Position numbers and translations under genes: made by a program. Positions 6,309-29,848 of a stretch of DNA of 32,569 nt are shown here, piece after piece. Under the pieces are notes generated by a model, which saw only the letters and a program-made list of their open reading frames with translations, was not told where the DNA came from and made no database searches. This DNA comes from a bacterium (GTDB taxonomy: Bacteria > Bacillota > Limnochordia > DTU080 > RSA5): positions 1 to 32,569 of the forward strand of contig PKEU01000168.1 of NCBI GenBank assembly GCA_002919195.1, read 5' to 3'. Position 1 is the first letter of the stretch; every line of letters begins with the position of its first letter.

Positions 6309-7373
6309 ATGTTGCGGCTCGACGAGATCGCACGCCTCGTCGGCGGAAAGTTGGATGGCCCGCCTGACCTTGTGATCACCGGAGCAGCGCCGGTCGATCA
6401 GGCGGGGCCGGGAGATATCACCTTTGCTGCTGAAAAACGGTACTTTGAGGCGGCCCGGACCAGCGCGGCCGCCTGCGTCATTGTTCCCGAGGACGCGCCA
6501 GAGCTCGAGCGGCCGACGATCCGGGTGGCGAGCCCGAGGCTTGCCTGGGCCCAGGTGCTGGAGGCGCTGGCACCCAAACCCCAGCATCCCGTGGGGATCC
6601 ACGAGAGCGCGGTCGTGGCTGAAGATGCCCGGATCGGCAAAAACGTCTCCATCCAGGCCAATGTGGTGGTAGGACCCCGGGCGGTGATCGGCGACGGGGT
6701 CGTTTTGTGCCCGGGAGTCTTTGTCGGCGCGGACTGCGTCATCGGGGAAGGGAGTCTCCTCTATCCCAACGTCACCGTGATGGATCGGGTCACCATCGGC
6801 AAGTCCGTCATCATCCACGCGGGCGCCGTGATCGGCAGCGACGGCTTTGGTTACGTCACGGTCAACGGCACGCACCGCAAAGTGCCCCACATCGGTACGG
6901 TGTTGATTGAGGACAACGTGGAGATCGGCGCCAATGTCACGGTGGATCGGGGCGTCTGTGGGGCGACTCGGATCGGTCGCGGCACCAAGATCGACAACCT
7001 GGTTCAGATCGGGCACAATGTGGAGATCGGCGAAGACTGCCTGGTCGTGGCCATGTCGGGGATCGCAGGCAGCGCGCGCATCGGCAACCGGGTGACCCTG
7101 GCCGGCCAGTCGGGCGTGGCCGGGCACCTCACCGTGGGCGATGGGTGCGTGGTAGCGGCCAGAGGGCTGGTGGCGAGGGACCTGGCCCCCAATTCTTTTG
7201 TCTCCGGCTTTCCGGCGCGGCCTCACAGAGAAAACATGCGGGTGATCGCCGCGACCCACAAACTGCCTGAGGCTTTGGAGAGCCTTGCGGCGCTCAAGCG
7301 CCAGTTGACACAGCTCCAGGAGCGCCTGGAGCGGTTGGAGGAGGATCTCCCCGCGCCCGGTGAGCTCCGATGA
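6309..7373 (+). CDS. lpxD: LpxD, UDP-3-O-(3-hydroxyacyl)glucosamine N-acyltransferase
   Basis: LpxD adds the second hydroxyacyl chain, at the 2-amino group, in lipid A synthesis, using acyl-ACP in the cytoplasm. The 354-residue protein has the N-terminal uridine-binding domain (about 1-95), a left-handed parallel beta helix of hexapeptide repeats (about 98-285), and a C-terminal helical tail (about 300-354) for the ACP-binding trimer end. The catalytic His of E. coli (H239) matches H236 in LVQIGHN, and H276 matches H273 in VAGH. The ATG at 6309 has a purine-rich GGGAAGGGAAG about 8 bases upstream; TTG 6312 in the same frame is a possible alternative. An inverted repeat CTAGGAA/TTCCTAG (6262-6290) lies in the 79-bp gap after ompH. 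Its stop overlaps the next start as ATGA. Confidence 0.97.
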   Translation: MLRLDEIARLVGGKLDGPPDLVITGAAPVDQAGPGDITFAAEKRYFEAARTSAAACVIVPEDAPELERPTIRVASPRLAWAQVLEALAPKPQHPVGIHESAVVAEDARIGKNVSIQANVVVGPRAVIGDGVVLCPGVFVGADCVIGEGSLLYPNVTVMDRVTIGKSVIIHAGAVIGSDGFGYVTVNGTHRKVPHIGTVLIEDNVEIGANVTVDRGVCGATRIGRGTKIDNLVQIGHNVEIGEDCLVVAMSGIAGSARIGNRVTLAGQSGVAGHLTVGDGCVVAARGLVARDLAPNSFVSGFPARPHRENMRVIAATHKLPEALESLAALKRQLTQLQERLERLEEDLPAPGELR

Positions 7374-9304
7374 GCCTGGTTCAACTGCGGGGCGTGCACC
7401 GCTACTACGGGGCCTACCACGTCCTCGGCCCCGTCGATCTCGAAATCCATCATCAAGATCGCATCGGGCTGATCGGGCCCAACGGCTCCGGCAAGAGCTC
7501 CCTTCTCGACATCATCGCTGGCGCCGAGCCCGACGAGGGTGTCGTGTCGCGGGCAAGGGGCCTCCGCATCGGGTACCTGCGGCAAGAGACGCCGATAGGA
7601 AGCGACCTGACACTTTACCAGTACGCCCTGGAGGCCTTTCGCCACCTGGAAGAAATCGAGGAAAACTTGCGGTCCCTCGAAGCCCGCATGGCTGATCCCA
7701 GGGTGCAAAGCGATCCTGATGCCTTGGAGTCGACCATGGGGACCTACCAGCGTCTCCTGACGCAGCTCCAAGAGGGCGGCGGTCTCGAAAAGGAAGCGCG
7801 CGCCAAGGGAGTGCTCTTTGGCCTCGGCTTTCGCGAGGAGGACCTCGCCAAACCCTTCGACGAGCTGTCCGGAGGGCAGAGGGCCCGGGCGCAGCTGGCC
7901 AGGACGCTGCTCAGCCAGCCCGACCTGCTCCTCCTCGACGAGCCCACCAACCACCTGGACCTGGAAGCGGTCGAATGGCTCCAGGGTTTCCTCAGCCGTT
8001 TCTCCAAGAGCTTGGTTTTGGTCTCCCATGACCGGTACCTCCTGCGGGCGGTGGCCAACAAGATCTGGGAGATTGAAGGAACCGGCGTCCTGGTCTTTAG
8101 AGGGGGATACGACGCCTCCCGCGAGCAGGCGGCGCAGCGCCGGGAGCAGATGGCCAAGCGGTACGAGGCGGCGCAGCAAGAGCGCGCCCGGCTGGAGGCG
8201 TTTATCCGCAAGTACAAGGCGGGAAGCCGGGCGACCCAGGCCAAAAGCCGGGAAAAGCGCTTGCAGCGGATGGAGGACGTCCCTCCGCCTCCCGAGGAGG
8301 CCCGGCGGGCAAAATTTACTGTTCCTCTCGGGCACCGGAGCGAACGCCGGGTGTGTACCCTGGAGGGCGTGAGCTTGGGCTATTCAGGTCGGGTGGTGCT
8401 GAAAGATCTCGATCTTGAGATCACCCGGGGCCAGCGTATCGGCATCGCCGGTCCCAACGGCTCGGGAAAGAGCACACTGCTCGCGGCCCTCGCGGGGGAG
8501 CTCGCGCCCCTCGAGGGCAGGATCGACTGGGGCAGAGGGGTTGTCCCAGCGTACTTCTCCCAGATGCGGACAGATCTCGATGAAACTCAAAGCGTCCTTG
8601 AAACCGTCCTCGACGCTTCAGGACAGCTGGTCGAGGAAGCCCGGAGTTTCCTGGCGCGCTTTCTTTTCCGGGGCGACGCTGTCTTTAAGAAAGCCGGCGA
8701 CCTCAGCGGCGGGGAAAAGAGCCGCCTGGCTCTCGCGCGGCTCCTTGTGCGGGGGGGCAACTTCCTGCTCCTCGACGAGCCCACCAACCACTTGGACATC
8801 GGCATGCAGGAGGCGTTGGAGGAGGCTCTGGAAGCCTACGAGGGGACTTTGCTCTTTGTCACCCACGACCGGAGGCTCTTGGACTCGCTGGCCCAGAGCA
8901 TCTGGTGGATCGAGGACGGAAGCCTCCACGTCATCGACGGCGGTTACGAGGCGCTGTCGCTCTGGCTGGCGGCCAGGCGAAAAGCTCTGGACGTGGTGGC
9001 GGACGAACGAACGGCGGACCGGCGGCCAGGCTCCTCGCTAGGGGTCCGGCAGCAAACGGGGCGGCCCGGCGCAAAGGACCGGGCGCGGGCCCGCGAGCGC
9101 GAGCGTCGCCTTGGGGAGATCGAAGCCGAGGTGGAGCGCCTTGCAGCTCGCAAAGCCCAGCTCGAAGAGGCGCTGGCCGACCCGGAAACCTACCAAGATC
9201 CGCAGAAGGCGGCTGAAATAGCCCTGGAGCACGCTGAGGTAGCAAAAGACCTGGAGGAGCGAGAAGCCCTCTGGCTCCAACTCGCGGATGGTCAGGAGGA
9301 TTGA
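7370..9304 (+). CDS. ABC-F family ATPase (Uup/EttA-like)
   Basis: The protein (644 residues) has two ABC ATPase domains and no membrane segments, the mark of the ABC-F group, whose members act on the ribosome rather than in transport. Walker A motifs are GPNGSGKSS (36-44) and GPNGSGKST (about 357-365). The signatures LSGGQRARAQ and LSGGEKSRLA are each followed by LLLDEPTNHLD. A charged linker of about 80 residues lies between the domains, and a C-terminal coiled coil (about 560-640) resembles the Uup DNA-binding tail. The ATG overlaps the lpxD stop (ATGA), so the two are translationally coupled. Why a ribosome or DNA-acting ATPase sits in an outer-membrane unit is not explained by the sequence. 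The exact subfamily is uncertain. Confidence 0.95.
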   Translation: MSLVQLRGVHRYYGAYHVLGPVDLEIHHQDRIGLIGPNGSGKSSLLDIIAGAEPDEGVVSRARGLRIGYLRQETPIGSDLTLYQYALEAFRHLEEIEENLRSLEARMADPRVQSDPDALESTMGTYQRLLTQLQEGGGLEKEARAKGVLFGLGFREEDLAKPFDELSGGQRARAQLARTLLSQPDLLLLDEPTNHLDLEAVEWLQGFLSRFSKSLVLVSHDRYLLRAVANKIWEIEGTGVLVFRGGYDASREQAAQRREQMAKRYEAAQQERARLEAFIRKYKAGSRATQAKSREKRLQRMEDVPPPPEEARRAKFTVPLGHRSERRVCTLEGVSLGYSGRVVLKDLDLEITRGQRIGIAGPNGSGKSTLLAALAGELAPLEGRIDWGRGVVPAYFSQMRTDLDETQSVLETVLDASGQLVEEARSFLARFLFRGDAVFKKAGDLSGGEKSRLALARLLVRGGNFLLLDEPTNHLDIGMQEALEEALEAYEGTLLFVTHDRRLLDSLAQSIWWIEDGSLHVIDGGYEALSLWLAARRKALDVVADERTADRRPGSSLGVRQQTGRPGAKDRARARERERRLGEIEAEVERLAARKAQLEEALADPETYQDPQKAAEIALEHAEVAKDLEEREALWLQLADGQED

Positions 9305-9474: not shown

Positions 9475-10104
9475 ATGGCGAAGAAACGCACGCGTCTTGG
9501 TTTGATCACAATGATGACCTTGGTCATGGTGTCGCTCGGACTTGGGACCGGCGCGGCTTACGCCGCGAGCGTCTCCGGCGCGACCGGACTGATTTACGTA
9601 CCCAGCGCCGACACGCTGGCAGCGCGTGAGGCCGAGATCAGCGTCCGCTACCTTGACGGCCGGCTCTCGTCATCGTTTATGTACGGGGTGTTTGACCAGA
9701 TCGAGATCGGCGTCAACAACATCCGGGCTAATGGCGACACGTCCGATCTGGGCATCGTCCTCAAAGGGACTGCGGTTCAAGAGACGGCGGACAGCCCGGC
9801 CATCGCGGTGGGATTTGAAACGGGACAGGGTTACGTGGTTGCGAGCAAGCGGCTAGCTCCGTGGCTGCGCGGCCATGCCGGTTTTGGCTACGGCGATCTG
9901 GAGGGCCTTTTCGCCGGCGTCTCGCTGGTCGTCAATACGACTTCGGGCGGTGGGGGCCCGGCGACCACCGTGTTGGCCGAATACACTCCGAAAGGCCTCA
10001 ATGCCGGGGTGAGAATGGTCTTTTCGCCGCTGATCTCGGTGGATGTGGCGTTGATCGATCTCAAGGAGCTTTCCGCCGGGGTCGCGCTCCGCACTCGGTT
10101 TTAG
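9475..10104 (+). CDS. Small exported beta-barrel-like protein, possibly YjbH-like
   Basis: The 209-residue protein has a clear signal peptide (basic MAKKRTR, hydrophobic core, cut near AYAA at about residue 26). The mature part is made of alternating short beta strands rich in Gly and aromatics. It ends in ALRTRF, and a final Phe is the usual outer-membrane barrel signal read by BamA. The opening GATGLIYVPSADTLAAREAE resembles the first strand and turn of YjbH/DUF940-type outer-membrane proteins, but the protein is much shorter than full YjbH, so this is only a family-level guess. A barrel of about 8-10 strands would fit. GGGAGGT at 9461-9467 supports the ATG. It stands alone between a terminator and a strong hairpin, so it may be expressed as its own unit. 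Confidence 0.6.
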   Translation: MAKKRTRLGLITMMTLVMVSLGLGTGAAYAASVSGATGLIYVPSADTLAAREAEISVRYLDGRLSSSFMYGVFDQIEIGVNNIRANGDTSDLGIVLKGTAVQETADSPAIAVGFETGQGYVVASKRLAPWLRGHAGFGYGDLEGLFAGVSLVVNTTSGGGGPATTVLAEYTPKGLNAGVRMVFSPLISVDVALIDLKELSAGVALRTRF

Positions 10105-13645: not shown

Positions 13646-13661
13646 AGTCCGAGGTGAGCTT

Positions 13662-14309
13662 GTGCAACCCCGAGTGCGCCTGGCCGTCATTGCGATTTTG
13701 ATGGTGACCGTGGCGGTGCTTGCCCTCCGGTACGTCAGTGACGCTCCCGGCGCGGGCGGCGGGGAAGAAGGCCCGGCGACGACCCGGTTTACTGCGCCGC
13801 GGTTTGTCGGCTACCACCAGGGCGTCCGGCAATGGGAGCTGGAGGCCGACGAGATCGAGGAGCGCCAAGATGAGAAAGGCGGCCGCCTCGTTCACCTCAC
13901 CCGGGTGCGCCACGGGATCCTCTACCGGGACGGGGAAGAGAGCATGCGCTTTGAGGCCGATCGAGGCGTGTGGCACGAGAAAAGCAGCGACCTCACGCTC
14001 GAGGGCAATGTCGTCTTTACCAACCAAGACGGGATGCGCTTCACCACCGAGGTGGTCTACTGGAACGCCGACACCGAGGCGCTCAGCTCACCAACGCCGG
14101 TGCGCATCACCTACAAGGATCAAGAGTTTGTGGCCGATCAGCTCGACGCCGACGTCAAAGCTGACGTCTACCGGTTTATCGGGAACGTCCGGTGGACCAA
14201 CGAGGCCGGCGCTTTGGTCCGCGCGCATTTGGCCGTCTACTCCGATGAAAAAGGCGTCTTGGAGTTTGTGGATCTTGACGGTCCCGCGCAGTTGATCGTC
14301 GAGCGGTAA
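13662..14309 (+). CDS. lptC: LptC-like bitopic periplasmic LPS transport protein
   Basis: The frame is open well upstream inside lptD, but the GTG at 13662 is preferred. It follows the lptD stop by 16 bp, has GAGGTGA at 13651-13657, and starts a typical LptC membrane anchor (residues about 5-24). The 215-residue product then carries FVGYHQGVRQWELEADEIE, the LptC family opening, followed by repeated beta strands (LTLEGNVVFTNQDGMRFTTE, FIGNVRWTNEAGALVRA) of the LptA/LptC jellyroll. LptC receives LPS from LptB2FG and passes it along the periplasmic bridge. E. coli LptC is 191 residues, and the extra length at the end could supply another jellyroll edge. No separate lptA is found here, so LptC and the LptD N-domain may bridge directly. 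It could also be read as an LptA/LptC hybrid. Confidence 0.85.
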   Translation: MQPRVRLAVIAILMVTVAVLALRYVSDAPGAGGGEEGPATTRFTAPRFVGYHQGVRQWELEADEIEERQDEKGGRLVHLTRVRHGILYRDGEESMRFEADRGVWHEKSSDLTLEGNVVFTNQDGMRFTTEVVYWNADTEALSSPTPVRITYKDQEFVADQLDADVKADVYRFIGNVRWTNEAGALVRAHLAVYSDEKGVLEFVDLDGPAQLIVER

Positions 14310-14387
14310 GCGCCTCCAACTCTTGGATTTGCCGGACGATCCCGGCCCGGAGGGAAGGAGTTGCCGCCCGTGCCCCTTTGCCTCCTA

Positions 14388-14396
14388 TGCTACAAT
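14388..14396 (+). promoter_or_regulatory. Extended -10 promoter for the transporter pair
   Basis: TGCTACAAT fits the extended -10 form TGnTAnAAT. No good -35 is seen at the right distance, which is common for extended -10 promoters. The predicted RNA start (about 14403) is upstream of the ribosome binding site and the GTG at 14431. Confidence 0.6.
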
Positions 14397-14430
14397 CAAG
14401 GTGTGTAGCTGGGGAAAAGGGGGTCGCGGG

Positions 14431-16317
14431 GTGCTCGCGCTGTTTCGAGAAGGGTTTTGGCGGGACGCGCTGGCCCTGGTGATCGTCGCGGTCGTGTTGG
14501 GCGGCCTTGCGGTCGGGGCGATCGGCCGGGGGGTCGAGGCCTACTTGACCCGGGCGGTCTCGGGGCTTGTCGGCGCGCCCGGTGAGTTTGACGCCGTGGT
14601 CCACGTGCGCCAGGACACGGGTGACCAAGCCCTGCGGCTCCTCGGCGAGCGCCTCGCCCAGTCTCACCCAGGTTTTGTGTATCGACGGGGCCCCGATCTG
14701 GCCGGCTACCGCAATGTGTTGATCCGCTTTCCCCGCGAGCTGCGCACCCGGGAGGGATTTGAATCCCTCCGTTCCCTCGTCGAAGATGTGCCTGGCTTTG
14801 ACGGCATCACGTATATCGTCCAGCCGGCGGTGGTGATCAGTGAAGTTCACCCCGCCTTGCGCCGCGAGTTTCTCGACTACGCGGCGAGCCTTTCCGAAGT
14901 TGAGTTTGCCTTTGCCAGCGGCTCCAGCCTTTGGACGGTGCTTCGTTCCCCCGACGACGTGGAGCGGGTCCAGCGCGCCCTTGAGGCTTTTGTTGCATCT
15001 TTGGCGATCCTTGACCTCCGCCTCGCGGCCCCTCTCGATTTGCCCCTTCGAGAAGCTATGAGTCGTGACGTGATCGCGCGGTTGCACGAGCACGACGCCG
15101 CGCTGCGCGTCATGCCCCTAACGGTCGATCCAGCCGAGAATGGGCCATCCGCCGACCTCTTTGCGGCCCGCGAGGCGATTGCCCGCCTGGGCGAGCTGAG
15201 CTCGCAAGAGCTGCGCTCCCGCCTGTTGGAAGCGGCGGATCTCGTCGAAAGTATGGCGAACGGCCTCCAAGGCGAGAGCAGCGATGATGAAGCCGACCTT
15301 GGGTACGTGCTCGACGCTTTCGCGCAGGCGGTCGATCAGCTGGAGCTCCTCGAGGCCCGGGTGGCGGATCTCGCCCGGCAGCTTCGCGGCATGGCCGAAG
15401 GAGGCCAGGCCTCCGACGTCCTCATCGCTCTCTTGCTGCAGAAGCTCATGGAACGCTGGGGCGGCGGGCAGCCCGTCGAACCGCCCCGCTCGGCCGTCGA
15501 CGTCGAGACATTGCGGAAAGGCCTTGACGCCATTTCCGCGCGCTTGGAAAGCCTGGAGGACCTCGACCTGCATCAGGCCGCGTCAGCGTTACGGGAGCTG
15601 GCCACGGCCCTGCCCGAGGTGGATCCGGAAGCGAGCGCGCGGATGCTGGCGGTCATCGACGCCCTGCTCCAACAAAGCCCCCAAGATCCTCAGCGGCTCC
15701 TTCTGATGGCCCGGGGCGTGAGCGACGTGCGGGAGCTCCAGCGGATCGTGGAAACCGCTGCGGGCGACGCTGTCCGTGTCTACGTGCAAAGCGCCGGCGT
15801 GGTCCAGCCCGACCCGCGCACGGCGATGCTGCAGCTGTTAATCGGCGCCCGGCGAGCGGCGACGATCCTCGGCGCCCTGCTGTTGTTTTTGCTCGTCTAC
15901 GTCTTCGACGCGACGACGCTCCTCAGCTTCGCCAGGCGGTGCGCTGAAGTGAGGGGAGAAAGCCGGCTTAAGACCGGGGCGGAAGTCGCGCTCTGGGGAG
16001 GCCTCTTTGGCGCTGTCACTTTTGGCGGCATGGTCTGGCTGGCGTCCGGCAGCGAGCTTATCCGCTTTTCGCTTACGCTCCTTGCGGGCGCCGCGATGGG
16101 CGCGCTGCTCTCTTTGGCGTCGGAGCGCCTCGGCGGGGTTGAGCGGGCGCCGTTTCTTGCGGCGTTGAGCCTCGGCGTCGCCGAGCCGGACCTCGTGAGG
16201 GAAGTGATCATCCCCGCAGGACGTCCCGGTATCTTGTACTGGCTGACCCGGCCGGGGCGAAAGCTGGGGCGCAAGGACGTTATCGACAGGTTTCGTCCCG
16301 GCTTTGCTGAGCGCTGA
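14431..16317 (+). CDS. Unrecognised membrane protein with MacB/FtsX-like topology, probable ABC transporter subunit
   Basis: I do not recognise this 628-residue protein. It has one N-terminal membrane segment (about 13-33), a soluble region of about 440 residues, then three membrane segments (about 478-494, 519-538 and 544-564) and a basic cytoplasmic tail. That 1+3 layout is the one used by MacB, LolC/E and FtsX permeases. The soluble part opens with an alpha/beta portion (52-135, EFDAVVHVR ... VLIRFPREL ... YIVQPAVVISEV). It then becomes mostly helical, with coiled-coil-like heptads (about 245-445) in place of a MacB core. Start: the frame runs back to 14323, but the promoter at 14388-14396 lies inside it. 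GTG 14431, with AAAAGGGGGT at 14415-14424, is better than GTG 14401. An ABC ATPase follows 46 bp downstream behind a perfect Shine-Dalgarno. A role in moving a lipid or lipoprotein, or in envelope signalling, is inference from topology and place. Confidence 0.5.
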   Translation: MLALFREGFWRDALALVIVAVVLGGLAVGAIGRGVEAYLTRAVSGLVGAPGEFDAVVHVRQDTGDQALRLLGERLAQSHPGFVYRRGPDLAGYRNVLIRFPRELRTREGFESLRSLVEDVPGFDGITYIVQPAVVISEVHPALRREFLDYAASLSEVEFAFASGSSLWTVLRSPDDVERVQRALEAFVASLAILDLRLAAPLDLPLREAMSRDVIARLHEHDAALRVMPLTVDPAENGPSADLFAAREAIARLGELSSQELRSRLLEAADLVESMANGLQGESSDDEADLGYVLDAFAQAVDQLELLEARVADLARQLRGMAEGGQASDVLIALLLQKLMERWGGGQPVEPPRSAVDVETLRKGLDAISARLESLEDLDLHQAASALRELATALPEVDPEASARMLAVIDALLQQSPQDPQRLLLMARGVSDVRELQRIVETAAGDAVRVYVQSAGVVQPDPRTAMLQLLIGARRAATILGALLLFLLVYVFDATTLLSFARRCAEVRGESRLKTGAEVALWGGLFGAVTFGGMVWLASGSELIRFSLTLLAGAAMGALLSLASERLGGVERAPFLAALSLGVAEPDLVREVIIPAGRPGILYWLTRPGRKLGRKDVIDRFRPGFAER

Positions 16318-16323
16318 GGCGCC

Positions 16324-16338
16324 AGGCCCGCCGGGCCT
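16324..16338 (+). repeat. Short hairpin ahead of the ABC ATPase gene
   Basis: AGGCCC and GGGCCT pair around a GCC loop in the 46-bp gap between the membrane protein and the ATPase. No T run follows. It may adjust the ratio of the two products, but nothing proves this. Confidence 0.4.
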
Positions 16339-16363
16339 TCCTGCTGCCGAAAGGAGGTGCTCC

Positions 16364-17236
16364 ATGCTCCAAGTCCACCAATTGACCAAACGTTTCGGCG
16401 ATCATGTGGCGCTGGACGCCGTCAGCTTTGACCTCAAGGCGGGAGAGACGCTCGCCATCTTGGGTCCCAGCGGCTCGGGAAAGTCGACCCTCCTCCGCTG
16501 CATTCAGCGGTTGATAGCCCCCGACTCCGGCGAAATCTGGTTTTGCGGCCAACCGGTGAGCCAATTGAGAGGAGAGGAGCTCCGCGCATACCGCCGGCGG
16601 GTGGGTTTCGTCTTTCAACACCCCCATCTCATCGAACACATGACCGTGCTGGAAAACGTCGCCTTGGGCCCGGTGATGGCGGGCCTTTCGACAAACGTGG
16701 CCTTGAGGTTAGCGGCCGCCGCGCTGGAGCGCGTGCAGCTCAGCGACAAGGCCCGGGCGTATCCCGCTTCGCTGAGCGGCGGCGAACGGCAGCGGGCGGC
16801 CATCGCCCGGACACTGGCCCTTGAGCCCCAGCTGATCCTCTGGGACGAGCCGACGTCGGCTCTCGATCCGATCTTGGTCGACGAGGTGCTCGCGATCATG
16901 GCCGAACTCGCCTCCCGGCGGGACCGGGCGATGATCGTCGTCACCCACGAGATCCCCTTCGCGTTGGCCGTCGCCGACCGCATGGCGCTCATGGAGCGGG
17001 GAAAGATCGTCGTCCAGGGCGAGCCCGAGGAGGTGCTCGTCGGCTCCGACGCCCCGCTAAGCCGAAAGTTTCGGCGGCTGTACGAGGTGCGGTACGCCGG
17101 GCTTTACCACCATATTGGCACGCGCCGAGGGAGGAAAGAGGCGGCCCGCTCCAGAAGTCAGCAACGTCTTGCCGGCGCGGCGTTGCTGAGGCGGCTGCCC
17201 GCCGGCTGGAGATGGAAAGGAACGATCTCAGGTTGA
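16364..17236 (+). CDS. ABC transporter ATP-binding protein paired with the 14431-16317 membrane protein
   Basis: The ATG at 16364 has a perfect AAGGAGGT (16351-16358). The 290-residue protein contains Walker A GPSGSGKST (34-42), Q-loop Q85, signature LSGGERQ (137-143), Walker B LILWDEP (157-163, with an unusual Trp) followed by TSALDP, and the H-loop His195. The sequence resembles polar amino acid (GlnQ-like) and FtsE/LolD ATPases. No amino acid permease or binding protein is near, while the membrane protein directly upstream has MacB/FtsX topology, so I infer they form one transporter. The fold should end near residue 243; the last 47 or so residues are basic, low in order, and encoded over a 9-bp inverted repeat, so they look like a read-through tail. 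Its TGA overlaps the lpxC TTG start. Confidence 0.88.
   Translation: MLQVHQLTKRFGDHVALDAVSFDLKAGETLAILGPSGSGKSTLLRCIQRLIAPDSGEIWFCGQPVSQLRGEELRAYRRRVGFVFQHPHLIEHMTVLENVALGPVMAGLSTNVALRLAAAALERVQLSDKARAYPASLSGGERQRAAIARTLALEPQLILWDEPTSALDPILVDEVLAIMAELASRRDRAMIVVTHEIPFALAVADRMALMERGKIVVQGEPEEVLVGSDAPLSRKFRRLYEVRYAGLYHHIGTRRGRKEAARSRSQQRLAGAALLRRLPAGWRWKGTISG
17158..17189 (+). repeat. Inverted repeat inside the 3' end of the ABC ATPase gene
   Basis: TCAGCAACG (17158-17166) and CGTTGCTGA (17181-17189) pair perfectly over 9 bp, with a 14-base GC-rich loop. It lies 44 bp before lpxC, in the part coding for the odd basic tail. No T run follows, so its role could be regulatory or none. Confidence 0.5.
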
Positions 17237-18078
17237 TCAGGCAGCGGACGGTTCGACAAGAAGTCTCCTACACGGGGCCGGCGATCCACACCGGCACCGT
17301 CAGCACGGTGACCCTGCGCCCGGCCCAGGGCGACACGGGCATTCTCTTTCGCCGCATCGACCTTCCCGGCCAGCCCACCGTCCAAGCGATTGCCGAAAAT
17401 GTCTCGCGCGCCGACCGGTGCACGACCCTGCAACAAGGAGAGGCTGTCATCTCGACGGTCGAGCACTTGATGGCGGCGTTGCGTGGCATCGGGATCGACG
17501 ATGTGGAAATCGACGTCGATGGTCCGGAGATTCCCATCGGTGACGGCAGTGCCGCGTGTTTCGTCAAGATGATCCAGGAGGCTGGCATCGTCGAACTGGA
17601 CGCGCCGCGGCAAATCGTCAAGGTGGAGCGTCCGGTTTGGGTGCGCGTGGGCGACAAAGTGGCGGTGGCCCTTCCCTACGACGGGTTTAAGGTGAGTTTC
17701 ACCTTTACCAATGACCACAACCATCCCGTATTGGGCGATCTCTTTGCCGAGTTTGATATCGACAGCGAGACCTTTTGCGAGGAGATCGCAAACGCCCGCA
17801 CGATCGGTTGGCTTTCCGAGCTGGAAGCCCTGCGGGCACGGGGCCTGGCCCGCGGCGCCACCGCAGAGATGGCGGTCGTCCTTTCGGAAAACGAGCTCTT
17901 GACTCCCCTGCGCTACCCCAACGAACCAGCCCGCCACAAGATCCTCGACATCATCGGCGACCTTTACCTCTCGGGATACCTCGAGGCCCACATCATCGCC
18001 ATCCGGACGGGCCACAAGATCAACAACCAGCTGGCCCGGGCGATCCGGGCGCAACATAAAGCCTTGGAAAGGGTGTAA
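17233..18078 (+). CDS. lpxC: LpxC, UDP-3-O-acyl-N-acetylglucosamine deacetylase
   Basis: LpxC is the zinc-dependent, committed step of lipid A synthesis. The TTG at 17233 gives MIRQRTVRQEVSYTG, which lines up residue for residue with E. coli MIKQRTL. It overlaps the preceding TGA as TTGA and has GGAAAGGAA about 10 bases upstream. ATG 17212 would add seven residues with no family match. The zinc ligands of E. coli (H79, H238, D242) match H78 in STVEHLM and H235 and D239 in RHKILDIIGD. The catalytic E78 and H265 match E77 and H261 (GHKINN). The length of 281 is a little below E. coli (305) because the C-terminal tail, which controls FtsH-dependent breakdown there, is lacking. That regulation is therefore unlikely here. 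A nucleotidyltransferase follows after 6 bp. Confidence 0.97.
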   Translation: MIRQRTVRQEVSYTGPAIHTGTVSTVTLRPAQGDTGILFRRIDLPGQPTVQAIAENVSRADRCTTLQQGEAVISTVEHLMAALRGIGIDDVEIDVDGPEIPIGDGSAACFVKMIQEAGIVELDAPRQIVKVERPVWVRVGDKVAVALPYDGFKVSFTFTNDHNHPVLGDLFAEFDIDSETFCEEIANARTIGWLSELEALRARGLARGATAEMAVVLSENELLTPLRYPNEPARHKILDIIGDLYLSGYLEAHIIAIRTGHKINNQLARAIRAQHKALERV

Positions 18079-18084
18079 GCGCCG

Positions 18085-19071
18085 GTGAAAGTCATCTTGC
18101 CGGTGGCAGGGATCGGAAGCAGGCTGAGACCACACACCCATACGACGCCCAAAGCTTTGGTGCACGTGGCGGGAAAGCCGATCTTGGGGCACATCCTCGA
18201 CGCTTTGATTCCCGTCGGCGTCGACGAGGTGGTGCTGGTCGTCGGGCACTTGGGCTCAAAGATCGTCTCGTACGTCAAGGAGCACTATGACGTGCGGGTC
18301 CACGTCGTCGAGCAAAAGGAGCCTAAAGGGCTGGGCCACGCCATCTACGTGGCGAGGGAAGCGGTCAAGGAGCCCGAGCCAATTCTCATCGTCCTGGGGG
18401 ACACCATCTTCCAGGCCGATCTCAAAAGCGCCTTGAGCCGGGGCAAGAGCACGCTGGGGGTCGCCCGGGTGAGCGATCCGAGAAACTTTGGCGTCGTGGA
18501 GCTCCAAGGGGAGCGCATCGTCCGCTTGGTGGAAAAGCCCCAAGATCCGCCGAGCGACTTGGCCATCGTCGGCGTTTACTACCTCAAAGACAGCTCCCGT
18601 TTGTACCAAGCGCTCGAACACGTGGTGAAAGGGGGGATCCGCTCGCGGGGCGAGATCCAGCTGACCGACGCCCTGCAGGTGATGGTAAGCCAGGGCGAAG
18701 AGATGACCACGTTTCCTGTGGACGTCTGGCTGGACTGCGGGAGCCCCGAAAGCCTCCTCGAAACCAACCGCCGCCTCTTGGAGCAGCGGGGGACGACCTC
18801 GGTCGAGCCCGGCACCGGGGTGATTATCATCCCGCCGGTGTACATCGCCCCGAGCGCCACGGTGAGGCACAGCATCGTCGGGCCCCACGTCTCGATCGCC
18901 GACGACGCCGTGGTCCAGCGGGCGGTGGTGCGCCATTCGATCATCAACCAGGGCGCGCACGTGGAGGAGATCCTTTTGTCGGATTCGATCATCGGCGAGC
19001 GGGCGGTGGTGGGCGGCAAGTACACGCGCCTCAACGTCGGCGATTCGTCGGAGATGCGCGTCGTCGGTTAG
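18085..19071 (+). CDS. Sugar-1-phosphate nucleotidyltransferase with left-handed beta-helix tail
   Basis: The protein (328 residues) opens with GIGSRLRPHTHTTPKAL (9-25), the nucleotide-binding loop of the RmlA/GlmU-type nucleotidyltransferases. LIVLGDTIF gives the metal-binding Asp, and EIQLTDALQ lies near residue 190. From about 245 to the end it forms hexapeptide-like repeats (IAPSATVRHSIVGPHVSIAD), as in the long form of glucose-1-phosphate thymidylyltransferase and archaeal-type sugar nucleotidyltransferases. It would make an NDP-sugar. Which sugar and which base (dTTP or UTP) cannot be told from the sequence. The GTG at 18085 starts 6 bp after lpxC, so it is co-transcribed and probably supplies a sugar for LPS or another surface glycan. 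It does not look like GlmU, because the catalytic acetyltransferase part is missing. Confidence 0.92.
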   Translation: MKVILPVAGIGSRLRPHTHTTPKALVHVAGKPILGHILDALIPVGVDEVVLVVGHLGSKIVSYVKEHYDVRVHVVEQKEPKGLGHAIYVAREAVKEPEPILIVLGDTIFQADLKSALSRGKSTLGVARVSDPRNFGVVELQGERIVRLVEKPQDPPSDLAIVGVYYLKDSSRLYQALEHVVKGGIRSRGEIQLTDALQVMVSQGEEMTTFPVDVWLDCGSPESLLETNRRLLEQRGTTSVEPGTGVIIIPPVYIAPSATVRHSIVGPHVSIADDAVVQRAVVRHSIINQGAHVEEILLSDSIIGERAVVGGKYTRLNVGDSSEMRVVG

Positions 19072-21543: not shown

Positions 21544-22703
21544 AAATCATGATGGTGGCAGGTGAAGCCTCGGGCGACCTGCACGGCTCTCACCTCGCCG
21601 CGGAAATCAAAAAGCGCGAGCCTGATCTGGAGCTCTTTGGGATGGGCGGCCCGATGATGGCTCAAGCCGGGGTCGAGCTCCTTTACGATCCGACTGCGAT
21701 CAGCGCCATCGGCTTTATCGAAGTGCTTCGCAGCGTGCAGATCTTGCGCAGGGTGCTCTCGCGCTTCGCGGAGGAGCTGGAGAAGAGGCGGCCGGATTGT
21801 CTGGTCTTGATTGATTTTCCCGAGTTTAACATGCGCCTGGCGGAGGTCGCGAAGACCCAGGGGATCCCGGTGGTCTACTATTTCAGCCCTTCGGCTTGGG
21901 CATGGCGCAAGGGCAGGGCCAAGACCGTCGCGGGGCACGCCACGAAAGTTTGTGCTGTCCTGCCCTTTGAAGCGCAAGTGTACCGGGAGGCCGGCGCCAG
22001 CGTGGAGTACGTGGGCCATCCCCTCGTCGATGTCGCCAAGCCCACCCTTTCCCCGGACGAGGCGAGAAAAGCCTTTGGCTGTGAGGGGAAGCATCCGGTG
22101 ATCGCCCTGCTGCCGGGAAGCCGCAAGCAGGAGTTGGACAACCACGTCGCGCCGATGCTCGCGGCGGCCGAGCAGCTCCTCGAGAAGTATCCCAACGCCT
22201 TTTTCCTTATGGCGCTCGCCCACACGATGAGCGAGGAGCAGATCAAGGAGAAACTGCCCAAGGAGCTGCCGGTCCGGGTCGTGCGGGGGCAGACCTACGA
22301 CGTGCTCGGCCTTGCGGACGCGGCGGCGTCCAAGATGGGCACTGTCACGTTGGAGGCGGCGCTCATCGGCTGTCCGATCGTTGCCCTCTACCGCACGTCC
22401 CGCTCGACCTACTTGATCGCCCGGCAGTTGTACCGGGGCAGGTACGTCGCTTTGCCCAACATCATCGCAGGCCGGGAGATCGTGCCGGAGCTCCTCCAGG
22501 ACGACGCCTCGCCCCAGCGGATCGCCGCCGAGGTGGCCGCGCTCTTAAGTGACGAGAAAAGGCGCCAGGCCATCATCGAAGGGTACCAAGAGGTGCGCCG
22601 GATTCTCGGAGGTCCAGGGGCTGTGGGTCGCGCCGCCGACGCCGTGTTGAGCGTCGCTCGGGCGCAAGCCCGCCGGGCTGAAGGTGGAACGCGTGGTTCG
22701 TGA
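21540..22703 (+). CDS. lpxB: LpxB, lipid-A-disaccharide synthase (GT19)
   Basis: LpxB joins lipid X to UDP-diacylglucosamine to make the beta-1,6 disaccharide at the membrane. The protein (387 residues) has GEASGDLHG (8-16), then LIDFPEFNMRLA, YYFSPSAWAWRKGR, YVGHPLVD, ALLPGSRKQELDNH and SKMGTVTLEAAL, all classic LpxB blocks over a GT-B fold of normal length. The TTG start at 21540 overlaps the lpxI stop and has GGAGGGAG 7 bases upstream. It is the first of three LpxB-fold glycosyltransferases in this region, and the only one with the full set of family motifs, so it should be the true disaccharide synthase. Confidence 0.97.
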   Translation: MKIMMVAGEASGDLHGSHLAAEIKKREPDLELFGMGGPMMAQAGVELLYDPTAISAIGFIEVLRSVQILRRVLSRFAEELEKRRPDCLVLIDFPEFNMRLAEVAKTQGIPVVYYFSPSAWAWRKGRAKTVAGHATKVCAVLPFEAQVYREAGASVEYVGHPLVDVAKPTLSPDEARKAFGCEGKHPVIALLPGSRKQELDNHVAPMLAAAEQLLEKYPNAFFLMALAHTMSEEQIKEKLPKELPVRVVRGQTYDVLGLADAAASKMGTVTLEAALIGCPIVALYRTSRSTYLIARQLYRGRYVALPNIIAGREIVPELLQDDASPQRIAAEVAALLSDEKRRQAIIEGYQEVRRILGGPGAVGRAADAVLSVARAQARRAEGGTRGS

Positions 22704-24018
22704 CGAAATCGTTTTTACCGTCAACAGCCCGGGCGAGGTGTCGACGTGGCTCGCCCCGACGGTGGCCGCGCTCAAGCGGCTGGCGCCCGACGTCAAGGCG
22801 ACGGTGTTTATCTTGCCATGCCTCTATGCTAGCGGCACGGAGCTCGACGTGGTCCGGCGCATGCCTGGCGTGGAGGCCGTCGTAAGCCCGCGCGAGAGCC
22901 TGCGCTACATCGTGGGAGGCCGCCTTCCGGCCGGGTGGCGCCCGGCGGGCCGGGGAGCCGTCGTCTTTTTGGGCGGCGAGCTGCTCCTGGCGGCGTTGTT
23001 GAGCAAGCGCTTGGGTTATCCCGCCGCCGCGTACACCGAAGGGGTTATGAATGCGCCGGCGGCCTTTTCCCGGGTATTTGTGTCCAGGGAGAGCGCCCGG
23101 GAGCAAGCGCTCCGAAAAGGAGTGCCCAAAGACCGGATCCGCGTCATTGGCGACTTGATGGTCGACGCGGCGAGGGTGGCAAAGGACGAAGCGGAGCGCC
23201 GCGAGGTGAGCGCGCCCTTGACGCGAGGCGACGAGCGGCGCATCGTGGCGATCCTTCCCGGAAGCAGGCCCTATGAGCTGCGCCACACCTTTCCCGTGAT
23301 GCTGGGAGCGGCGGCCTTGCTGGCTCGCTGGGCGCCGGGGCTGCGCTTTGTCGTGGCGGTGTCGCCGTATACCACCCGTGAGGCGTTGGCCCGCGGCCTT
23401 GAGGCGAGCGCCCGGTGGTCCTGCGGGGATGAAAAAAATCCGGCGTCGGCCAGCGAGCCGGTCCTTTCGCCGCCGGGGGCGCTGGAGCGGCTTTTCGCCT
23501 CCGACGCGGGCGGCGGCACGCTCGTCGATGCGACGGTCACCACGCCTGAGGGCCCGGTGGAGGTCACGTTTTGGCGGGGGCCGTCGAGGGTGGTCATGGC
23601 CGGCGCGGCGCTCGCGCTCACCATTCCCGGCAGCAACACTGCAGAGTTGGCCGCGTGGGGCGTGCCTATGGTGGTGACGATGCCCCTGAGCAGCCCTGAA
23701 GAAGTGCCGCTGGACGGGGTGTTGGGCTATATCGACAAGATTCCCCTGATCGGCCGGTCGCTCAAAGCCAAAGCGGTGCTGCGGGCGGTGGAGCGAACAC
23801 CCTTTGTCGCCTTGCCAAACCGCATTGCCCAGGAGCTTATCGTGCCAGAACTCCGTTCCACCCGCCTCCTGCCACGCGAGGTGGCCGAGGAGGCTCGGCG
23901 CCTTCTCGACGAGCCGGAAGTGCTTAAAAGCATGGGCAGCCGGCTTGTCGAAGTCATGGGAGCGGGGGGCGGCGCGGAGGCGCTGGTGCGCGAGACCCTC
24001 AAACTCTTGCAGCCTTGA
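22693..24018 (+). CDS. LpxB-like GT-B glycosyltransferase of unknown acceptor
   Basis: About 441 residues with a GT-B fold resembling LpxB and related lipid-sugar transferases. NSPGEVSTWLAPTV at the N-terminus takes the place of the LpxB GEASGD loop. YTEGVMNAPAAF and VIGDLMVDAARVAKDEAE follow, then AILPGSRPYELRHTFPVML and the donor-site stretch TIPGSNTAELAAWGVPMV. It is longer than LpxB by an insert near residues 235-285, low in similarity to anything I know. The start is either GTG 22693, with AAGGTGG 6 bases upstream (chosen), or GTG 22684; both overlap the end of lpxB. The place between lpxB and msbA is where LpxK and WaaA lie in other bacteria. A role in adding a sugar to the lipid A disaccharide is inference; WaaA-type Kdo transfer is possible but unproven. 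Confidence 0.7.
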   Translation: MVRDEIVFTVNSPGEVSTWLAPTVAALKRLAPDVKATVFILPCLYASGTELDVVRRMPGVEAVVSPRESLRYIVGGRLPAGWRPAGRGAVVFLGGELLLAALLSKRLGYPAAAYTEGVMNAPAAFSRVFVSRESAREQALRKGVPKDRIRVIGDLMVDAARVAKDEAERREVSAPLTRGDERRIVAILPGSRPYELRHTFPVMLGAAALLARWAPGLRFVVAVSPYTTREALARGLEASARWSCGDEKNPASASEPVLSPPGALERLFASDAGGGTLVDATVTTPEGPVEVTFWRGPSRVVMAGAALALTIPGSNTAELAAWGVPMVVTMPLSSPEEVPLDGVLGYIDKIPLIGRSLKAKAVLRAVERTPFVALPNRIAQELIVPELRSTRLLPREVAEEARRLLDEPEVLKSMGSRLVEVMGAGGGAEALVRETLKLLQP

Positions 24019-25880: not shown

Positions 25881-25884
<4 letters not shown>

Positions 25885-27083
25885 TGGCCGTGCCTTCCCT
25901 CCTTTTCTTGAGCAATGGCCACGGAGAAGACGTAATCGCCGCCACCATCGCGACGAAGGTGCGCGAGCTCGCGCCCGCGATCAAGATCATGGCGTACCCG
26001 GTCGTCGGCTACGGCGACGCCTACCGCCGAGCTGACCTTCCCGTGGTCGGCGTGCAGCAGGCGATGCCCACCGGCGGCTTTATCCTCAAAGGCGCCGGCA
26101 ACCTGTGGAAAGACCTCAAGGCAGGCTTGATCGATCTCACCCGCCGCCAAATCCGAGATCTTAAGGAGAGGAGCGCGGCCGTCGACGGCGTCGTCGCTGT
26201 CGGCGATGTTTACGCGCTTTGGTTGGCTGGGAGATTTGTGAGGCGGCGTACCCTCTTTGTCGCGACGGCTAAGTCGGAGTACATCCGGGGGCACTACTTT
26301 TGGGAATACGCCCTGATGCGCAGGTATGCCGTCCACGTCTACGCTCGCGATCTGTTGACGGCCCAGGCGATGGCCCGCCGGAAGGTGCCGGCGGAGTTTG
26401 TCGGCAACGTGATGATGGACGCGCTTCCCATCCATGGGAGCGACTTGGGACTGCGGCCTGACTTGCGGGTCGTGGGGTTGTTGCCCGGGAGCCGCCAGGA
26501 CGCGTACGGCAACGCCCTGGACCTCTTGCGGGTCGTCGAGGCTTTGGAAGGTTTGGGCGAAGAGATCGGGTTTCTGATGTCGGTCGCTCCGTCGCTCGAG
26601 GTGGAGCCACTGGTCCGGGCTGCACGGGAAGACGGCTGGCGAGCGCTTGACGACGGCCCTGTAAGCATCGCCGGAGGCAGCCGCTGGACGCTGGCGAAAC
26701 ATGGGCTCCAAGTCGTGTGCGTCCAAGGGGCCTTTGGCGACTTGCTTTCCCGGGCAGACATCGTCATCGGCCTCGCCGGTACCGGCAACGAGCAGGCGGT
26801 GGGGCTTGGGAAACCGGTCGTCACGTTTCCCGGAAAAGGCACGCAGTTTACCCCCAAGTTTGCCCGGGACCAAAAACGCCTCCTCGGCGACGCGGTCTCT
26901 CTCGTGGCCCGAGATCCCCAGGTGGTGGCCGAGGAAGTACGCCGCATCTTGAGCGATCCTGAGCTTTACGCCCGCATGGCCCGCGCCGGCAAGGAAAGGA
27001 TGGGGGAGCCGGGCGGAGCGCTCAAGATGGCTGAGCGGATTGTCGCGCTCTTTCAGCCGCCAGCGCCTCGCGCATCCCGGTGA
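25881..27083 (+). CDS. Lipid-A-disaccharide synthase-related protein (COG4370-like glycosyltransferase)
   Basis: This 400-residue GT-B protein starts with LLFLSNGHGEDVIAATIA, the signature opening of a group related to LpxB that is found in cyanobacteria, Deinococcus and some diderm Firmicutes, with no tested function that I know of. Later blocks are VGNVMMDALP, GLLPGSRQDAYGNALDLL and IGLAGTGNEQAVGLGKPVV followed by FPGKGTQFTPKFARDQ, the donor-binding end. Start GTG 25881 overlaps the msbA TGA (GTGA), and ATG 25884 directly after is equally possible. Co-translation with msbA suggests it acts on the same lipid, for instance to add a sugar to it. Its last 62 bp overlap the end of the minus-strand GT2 gene. 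Confidence 0.8.
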
Positions 27084-29062: not shown

Positions 29063-29128
29063 CGCCCATCCTTGCCACATTTTCAGCGAAGGTTACTGCA
29101 GCCCGAAGCTCGAAAATTGCCAGGTGAT

Positions 29129-29848
29129 ATGAGCATCGTCGCACAGGATCTCGTCAAATCGTATTCGGGCCGCCGGGTGGTGGACGGCGTCTCGCTCCAG
29201 GTCGACCGCGGGGAAGTCGTGGGCCTTTTGGGCCCCAACGGCGCGGGCAAGACCACGACGTTTTACATGATCGTCGGGCTGGAGCGGGCGGCGAGCGGGC
29301 GCATCTTGCTCGACGGCGTCGACGTCAGCGCGTGGCCGATGTATCAGAGAGCCCGCAAAGGCCTGGGGTACCTGGCGCAAGAGCCTTCGGTCTTTCGGAA
29401 ACTCACGGTGGAAGAAAACATCCTGGCGATCTTGGAAAACCGGGGCATCCGGGGCAGCGCCGCGAAAAAGCGGGCTCAGGAGCTATTGGAAGAGTTTGAT
29501 ATTGTGCATGTGCGTCATCAAAAGGGTTTCTCGCTTTCCGGCGGCGAGCGCCGGCGGACCGAGATCGCAAGGGCATTGGCCGCGGATCCGTCGTACCTTT
29601 TGTTGGACGAGCCCTTTGCCGGAGTCGACCCCATCGCCGTGGCCGAGATCCAGGCCATCATTGCGCACCTCAAGTCCCGGGGACTCGGCATCCTGATCAC
29701 CGACCACAACGTAAGGGAGACGCTCGCGATCACCGACCGGGCCTATATCATGCACCAGGGAAAGATCTTGGTCTCGGGTCCGGCCAAAGTGGTGGCCCAA
29801 AACGAGATCGCCCGCAAGTTTTACCTTGGAGAGGGGTTTACTCTGTGA
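29129..29848 (+). CDS. lptB: LptB, ATPase of the LPS export complex
   Basis: The 239-residue ATPase matches LptB along its length. The start SIVAQDLVKSYSGRRVVDGV is followed by Walker A GPNGAGKTT (35-43). The Q-loop stretch is GYLAQEPSVFRKLTVEENI, and the motif LSGGERRRTEIARALA runs into LLDEPFAGVDPI, which is specific to LptB among ABC ATPases. The H-loop is in TDHNVRETL. LptB dimers drive the two LptF/G-type permeases. The ATG at 29129 fits the family length; the frame runs back to TTG 29072, but that would add an unmatched tail. The Shine-Dalgarno AGGTGA sits close to the start. Its TGA overlaps the next start (GTGA), tying it to an LptF/G permease. Confidence 0.97.
   Translation: MSIVAQDLVKSYSGRRVVDGVSLQVDRGEVVGLLGPNGAGKTTTFYMIVGLERAASGRILLDGVDVSAWPMYQRARKGLGYLAQEPSVFRKLTVEENILAILENRGIRGSAAKKRAQELLEEFDIVHVRHQKGFSLSGGERRRTEIARALAADPSYLLLDEPFAGVDPIAVAEIQAIIAHLKSRGLGILITDHNVRETLAITDRAYIMHQGKILVSGPAKVVAQNEIARKFYLGEGFTL

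Follow-up and report, generated by a model that had tools for sequence, protein, structure and literature searches.

An ABC permease-ATPase gene pair linked to the outer-membrane gene cluster and to a sporulation marker in diderm Firmicutes

An ABC permease gene (PERM) and its ATPase gene, located in the outer-membrane (OM) gene cluster of a member of the Limnochordia, belong to a family whose presence follows a rule, the pair being found almost exactly where an outer membrane and endospore formation occur together. The sole spore marker used was SpoIVA (PF09547), a gene whose presence is not proof of sporulation. The pair was examined in a 32,569-nucleotide stretch of DNA (contig PKEU01000168.1 of assembly GCA_002919195.1), hereafter the window, and forms one unit with type I-like coupling that is tied both to the OM cluster and to the sporulation marker. 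Our tentative reading, to which we give somewhat less than an even chance, is that the pair encodes an ABC complex of the inner membrane, an extractor or mechanotransmitter that serves the OM of diderm endospore formers, possibly for the conversion of inner to outer membrane.

The locus and its promoter

The two open reading frames and the Shine-Dalgarno sequence lie where a sequence-only reading of the window had placed them (Table 1), with AAAGGAGG 6-7 nt ahead of the ATG of the ATPase gene. PERM and the ATPase gene were constantly adjacent in the loci read, and two natural fusions in a single frame of 991-992 codons were identified on the minus strand (L035, 8875-11847; L038, 1888-4863). 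In several Negativicutes a second PERM-ATPase operon (about 50% identical; L181-L189) stands by itself outside the lpx cluster, and the surrounding ORFs that were looked at included no recognised sporulation or OM genes. The fusions and second operons indicate that PERM and the ATPase form one unit.

Table 1. Positions of the gene pair, its sequence elements and its conserved neighbours in the window
Feature	Position	Strand	Details
PERM permease gene	14431..16317	+	GTG start, 628 aa; TM1, two predicted ferredoxin-like units in tandem, a helical domain, a half ferredoxin, TM2-TM4 and the EAA tail at the C-terminus
ABC ATPase gene	16364..17236	+	ATG start, 290 aa; all catalytic motifs; PAAT (GlnQ/HisP) branch
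Shine-Dalgarno AGGAGG of ATPase gene	16352..16357	+	from sequence
Extended -10 element TGCTACAAT ahead of PERM gene	14388..14396	+	7/8 match in window; kept in relatives
EAA-type coupling segment ERLGGVERAPFLAALSLGVAEPDLVREVIIPAGRPGILYW	16138..16251	+	PERM residues about 570-607; hhalign, PDB profile search, BPD_transp_1 matches
lptC, conserved upstream neighbour	13659..14309	+	PF06835 E 1.6e-17; TIGR04409 80.5 bits, cut-off 38
lpxC, conserved downstream neighbour	17212..18078	+	PF03331 E 7.4e-93; TIGR00325

When a single genome from each species was scanned, 78 PERM loci were obtained, among them loci of Negativicutes (Pelosinus, Sporomusaceae, Propionispora), Halanaerobiales and Hydrogenispora, and the family occurs widely in Limnochordia, Negativicutes and Halanaerobiia. 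PERM was present in 58/61 genomes sampled with the relatives of the window, with no match in three genomes of its class (G011, G054, G060), which are left out of the spore-gene comparison below. None of the PERM relatives was found on a plasmid. Nearly all loci read show, with variations, the order bamA - lpxD - lpt genes - PERM - ATPase - lpxC - fabZ - lpxA - lpxI - lpxB, the pair lying directly 5′ of lpxC in most genomes, and no substrate-binding protein was recognised in this conserved neighbourhood. The true LptB of the window is encoded at 29072-29845 and two LptF/LptG genes are also present.

Other features of the cluster were recorded in the window. There is no separate gene between lptC and PERM (14309-14431), a position where many relatives have room and some have LptA/LptD-like genes. 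At 9475-10101 lies a gene for a short protein that partly matches YjbH (PF06082, E 1.6e-6) and is often found beside lpxD/lptF in diderm Firmicutes, with an ABC-F (ribosomal protection-like) gene at 7370-9301 between it and lpxD. An RmlA-like nucleotidyltransferase gene (18085-19068) lies between lpxC and fabZ, as in many Limnochordia, and was not found at that site in the Negativicutes or Halanaerobiales loci read. A lipid-A-disaccharide synthase-related protein (TIGR03492) is encoded at 25881-27080 in addition to the lpxB-like gene at 22684-24015.

The pair had been proposed to have its own extended -10 promoter, and comparison of related loci supports this. A perfect 8/8 TGnTATAAT stands ahead of PERM in 69/74 related loci at a median distance of 28 nt from the start codon, and the 80 nt ahead of PERM contain TATAAT in 70/74 loci against 3.4 expected from shuffles. 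Nine other cluster genes tested for an upstream TATAAT were at or near background, and genomes lacking the pair have no perfect TGnTATAAT copy ahead of lpxC. A scan for -35/-10 pairs at the window promoter gave none that passed. Because the element is conserved perfectly in those 69 loci, TGCTACAAT is not a chance match, and the PERM promoter is real, conserved and of the sigma-A type. A sporulation sigma promoter ahead of PERM was considered and rejected, CATAnAnT/CATnnTA motifs being no commoner than in shuffles, so that production of the pair presumably extends to growing cells. Repeated GTATATAC blocks, operator-like and suggestive of a putative regulator, were seen within 100 nt ahead of PERM in three loci (L144, L112, L110). 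An inverted repeat with arms of 5-10 bases surrounds the -10 element in some others (L071, L081, L101, L111), the mean longest arm upstream of PERM being 3.7 compared with 1.7 in shuffles.

Topology, fold and coupling of the permease

Hydropathy analysis of PERM identified transmembrane (TM) stretches at residues 8-37, 467-502, 519-537 and 542-564, with one further marginal peak, soluble, at 184-204. An AlphaFold2 monomer model built with 43 family members (mean pLDDT 77.5, pTM 0.65) placed helices at 9-47, 462-508, 516-539 and 546-562, the two methods concurring on one TM helix at the N-terminal end and three at the C-terminal end. No other topology was predicted, in keeping with the proposal that PERM has a 1+3 arrangement with its soluble part outside the cytoplasm. 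The extracytoplasmic part between TM1 and TM2 comprises about 430 aa. Within it, residues 55-198 are predicted with high model confidence to form two ferredoxin-like units in tandem, as read from the order of strands and helices, followed by a stretch of helices modelled with low confidence (about 204-415) and a half ferredoxin unit (422-460). The same domain order was obtained in a second monomer model, that of a Propionispora relative.

Profile searches of Pfam, NCBIfam and the PDB gave no confident match for PERM, in agreement with its description as part of an unrecognised ABC transporter. The window protein had no Pfam match at E 0.1, FtsX/MacB_PCD was not among the 25 families listed for 17 PERM members, and searches for LptF_LptG, MlaE (PF02405) and MCE domains gave no match. 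A likeness to adenylate kinase was rejected as spurious because it was weak and confined to the low-confidence helical region. A likeness to MmpL/RND proteins (Foldseek, E 5e-5 but TM-score 0.12 and rmsd 40-50) was also rejected and kept merely as a hint of ferredoxin-like subdomains.

The best-conserved stretch of PERM is its C-terminal tail, with the consensus AGxALGLSxxxIMREIVIPxxRPGLL. Profile-profile alignment (hhalign) of the tail against 12 E. coli type I permeases gave a probability of 94.6% (E 6.8e-8, metI 111-159), compared with at most 4.3% for 60 column-shuffled controls, 0.55% for the reversed control and 26-30% for PERM against LolC, LolE, FtsX and MacB. An hmmsearch of the PDB with the PERM family weakly matched MetI 115-148 and PotC (E 0.17 and 0.54), and BPD_transp_1 was matched by 7/17 PERM members with a best E of 0.001. 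Type I importers have a core of five TM helices, two of which follow the EAA loop. No TM helix follows the EAA motif in PERM and the chain ends soon after it. The ATPase has all its motifs (Walker A GPSGSGKST, LSGGERQ, Walker B LILWDEP and H-loop VTHE) and in a tree groups with GlnQ, HisP, ArtP and GltL (node support 0.977), apart from LolD, MacB and FtsE, as expected of the GlnQ-like enzyme it had been taken for. The description of PERM as MacB/FtsX-like therefore stands for its topology but not for its coupling, which by these alignments is type I-like and not of the MacB/LolC/FtsX kind. The architecture is thus mixed, a type VII-like topology being joined to type I coupling and a type I ATPase. 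By the features that define them PERM falls in neither family, and none of the families searched shows this combination.

Distribution with outer-membrane and spore genes

A sample of the phylum comprising 299 genomes, many of the sampled genomes being MAGs, was searched by alignment with the top three candidates per genome scored. The 113 matches obtained were cut to 59 true PERM orthologues (E < 1e-15) because the rest were short MetI-type permeases drawn in via the EAA tail. The gene lpxC was present in 62 genomes and both genes in 46 (Fisher p 1e-28, relatedness ignored). PERM without lpxC was found in 13/299 genomes, and the eight such loci that were read (L034, L149-L154, L161) have kept LptB, LptF/G, LptC and mostly BamA and have no lpxC, lpxA or lpxD, indicating that PERM follows the OM and Lpt genes and not lipid A. 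As such the pair is independent of lipid A synthesis. These eight loci (families f7, f76, f86), which also carry LpxB-like genes, apparently represent an OM without lipid A, Lpt perhaps carrying another glycolipid. The converse, lpxC without PERM, was found in 16/299 genomes. Three of these have lpxC outside an OM cluster (two read, G142 and G207; the third, G281, taken from its family) and in G306 the locus is cut by a contig end, while in the nine loci read from the remaining 12 genomes the lpx cluster is present and the pair is missing. The pair was not found in sampled genomes lacking the OM cluster, so that its expected place beside lpt and lpxC across diderm Firmicutes, and its absence where the OM cluster is lacking, were both seen in the genomes sampled.

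SpoIVA was present in 250/299 genomes of the phylum sample, including 59/59 genomes with PERM, and in 0/12 genomes having the OM cluster but lacking the pair. There are thus about 190 genomes with SpoIVA and without the pair, nearly all of them also without lpxC, and monoderm spore formers do not have the pair. The link was followed in samples of two classes, which overlap the phylum sample by a few genomes and whose class assignments were inferred from a 100% match to a Propionispora protein, from synteny and from relatedness. PERM was present in 27/59 Halanaerobiia and SpoIVA in exactly the same 27 (59/59 concordant, Fisher 2e-17), while 145/150 Negativicutes were concordant (50 with both, 95 with neither; p 8e-34), although these p-values ignore relatedness and independent losses on a tree are the fairer measure. 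A tree of 55 Halanaerobiia taxa built from five concatenated lpx/fabZ proteins shows four such losses of PERM, each with loss of SpoIVA. Two families, f77 and f165, are mixed for PERM and the rule holds inside each of them. In f77 and f122 the stretch from lpxD to lpxC was also stripped of its recognisable lpt genes, the losses being narrower in f165, f167 and the Negativicutes. Of the five discordant Negativicutes four have PERM only, two of these genomes being 65-83% complete and two (G375, G381) 92-93% complete, and one (G393, 89% complete) has SpoIVA only. The rule for the presence of the pair is thus an outer membrane together with endospore formation.

Possible function and relation to known ABC systems

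Two permeases and two ATPases would probably make up a single inner-membrane complex, in which the C-terminal EAA tails of the permeases would be the docking sites of the ATPases. Binding and hydrolysis of ATP would then shift the TM helices, and these would pass the movement on to the ferredoxin-like and helical domain outside the cytoplasm. Outward action is the most likely since there is no substrate-binding protein beside the pair, and the complex would act at the periplasmic face as a lipid or lipoprotein extractor or as a mechanotransmitter. The most likely step would be OM supply or remodelling during spore formation and outgrowth, when the outer spore membrane derived from the inner membrane becomes an OM. 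Within this reading it is the stoichiometry, direction, substrate class and stage of action that we infer.

In Acetonema longum the outer spore membrane originates from the inner membrane, which it resembles, and the mechanism that remodels it into an OM is described as 'not known' (PMC7985256). An inner-membrane pump whose genes lie with those for the OM and persist only in spore formers fits this gap. The pair is therefore a concrete candidate for this step in diderm spore formers, since it needs both the OM cluster and spore genes and has undergone repeated coupled losses. Veillonella parvula, a diderm Firmicute that has been studied, does not form spores (PMC7985256) and the sampled non-spore-forming Negativicutes almost all lack the pair, which may explain why it has escaped notice. 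The main text of a 2016 survey of this cluster names three unexplained conserved genes and the pair is not among them (PMC5007114). A bolder version, in which a dedicated ABC machine of mixed architecture drives the conversion of spore membrane to OM and was an ancestral part of the proposed diderm, spore-forming ancestor of the Firmicutes, is possible but doubtful.

An outward lipid or lipoprotein extractor would be the first choice, its main rival being a mechanotransducer resembling FtsEX that transports nothing but spends ATP on activating a periplasmic partner such as a peptidoglycan hydrolase acting on the septum, cortex or germ cell wall of diderm spores. The 1+3 topology, the large helical extracytoplasmic domain, the spore link and a weak structural match to FtsEX (8ymc_C, E 0.14) are all consistent with such a switch, and signalling of this kind would look the same as transport in these data. 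However, the pair lies among lpx, lpt and bam genes and not among wall hydrolases, and both coupling and ATPase are of the type I kind and not that of FtsE/FtsX, so that we regard a wall-enzyme switch as unlikely. We consider it rather unlikely that the pair transports lipids or lipoproteins for the OM in general, in the manner of Lol or Mla, and by chance was lost in lineages that also lost spores. Its place in the OM cluster is in keeping with this, as are the reported absence of Lol from Negativicutes (PMC10665443; PMC5007114) and the patchy occurrence of MlaE, which was detected in 18/75 genomes tested (f44/f74, f7 and four others), is absent from most pair-bearing genomes and is not complementary to the pair. 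Against this, the pair and SpoIVA disappeared together on at least four independent occasions, LolA is reported in Halanaerobiales (PMC5007114) and MlaEFD in all Negativicutes (PMC10665443). The suggestion made from the sequence, that the pair moves lipids or lipoproteins in place of a missing Lol pathway, is weaker. Substitution for Lol explains too little, since Halanaerobiales, many of them with the pair, are reported to have LolA and many diderm Firmicutes have no PERM, including 12 OM-bearing genomes of the phylum sample (no spore gene) and, in the class samples, 95 Negativicutes and 32 Halanaerobiia.

An accessory role in LPS export, for example as a second pump feeding the Lpt bridge, would suit the position of the pair between lptC and lpxC, directly before lpxC in most genomes, but is improbable given that LptB and two LptF/LptG genes are already encoded in the window, that 13 genomes have the pair without lpxC and that many lpx-bearing genomes do not have the pair. 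A nutrient importer of the polar amino acid type, to which the GlnQ-like ATPase and EAA motif might point, is highly improbable in view of the large extracytoplasmic domain, the OM gene context, the lack of a nearby binding protein and the lack of any TM helix after the EAA motif, where type I importers have two.

The pair shares features with several known ABC systems. With LptB2FG the pair shares its gene cluster and its service to the OM, but LptB and two LptF/LptG proteins are encoded separately in the window, PERM does not match LptF_LptG and the ATPase is not an LptB equivalog. MlaFEDB and other MCE systems are likewise ABC systems linked to OM lipids, whereas the pair has no MlaE or MCE domain and the distribution of MlaE differs from its own. 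Type I importers of the PAAT/MetNI branch (BPD_transp_1, PF00528; HisMQP, GlnPQ, MetNI) have an ATPase of the same GlnQ/HisP branch and an EAA motif whose G, Q(+5), P(+13) and RPG spacing is found in most PERM members. They differ in that their EAA motif precedes two more TM helices, while that of PERM is C-terminal, after the last, and in that PERM has an extracytoplasmic domain of about 430 aa and no binding protein nearby. The type VII systems (MacB, LolCDE, FtsEX) have the same 1+3 topology and likewise carry an extracytoplasmic soluble part between TM1 and TM2, but PERM does not match FtsX or MacB_PCD, the ATPase belongs to another branch, and the coupling helix of type VII lies between TM2 and TM3 while the coupling-type motif of PERM follows TM4. 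The pair would add to the known ABC architectures one in which the EAA coupling motif forms the C-terminal tail of a 1+3 permease.
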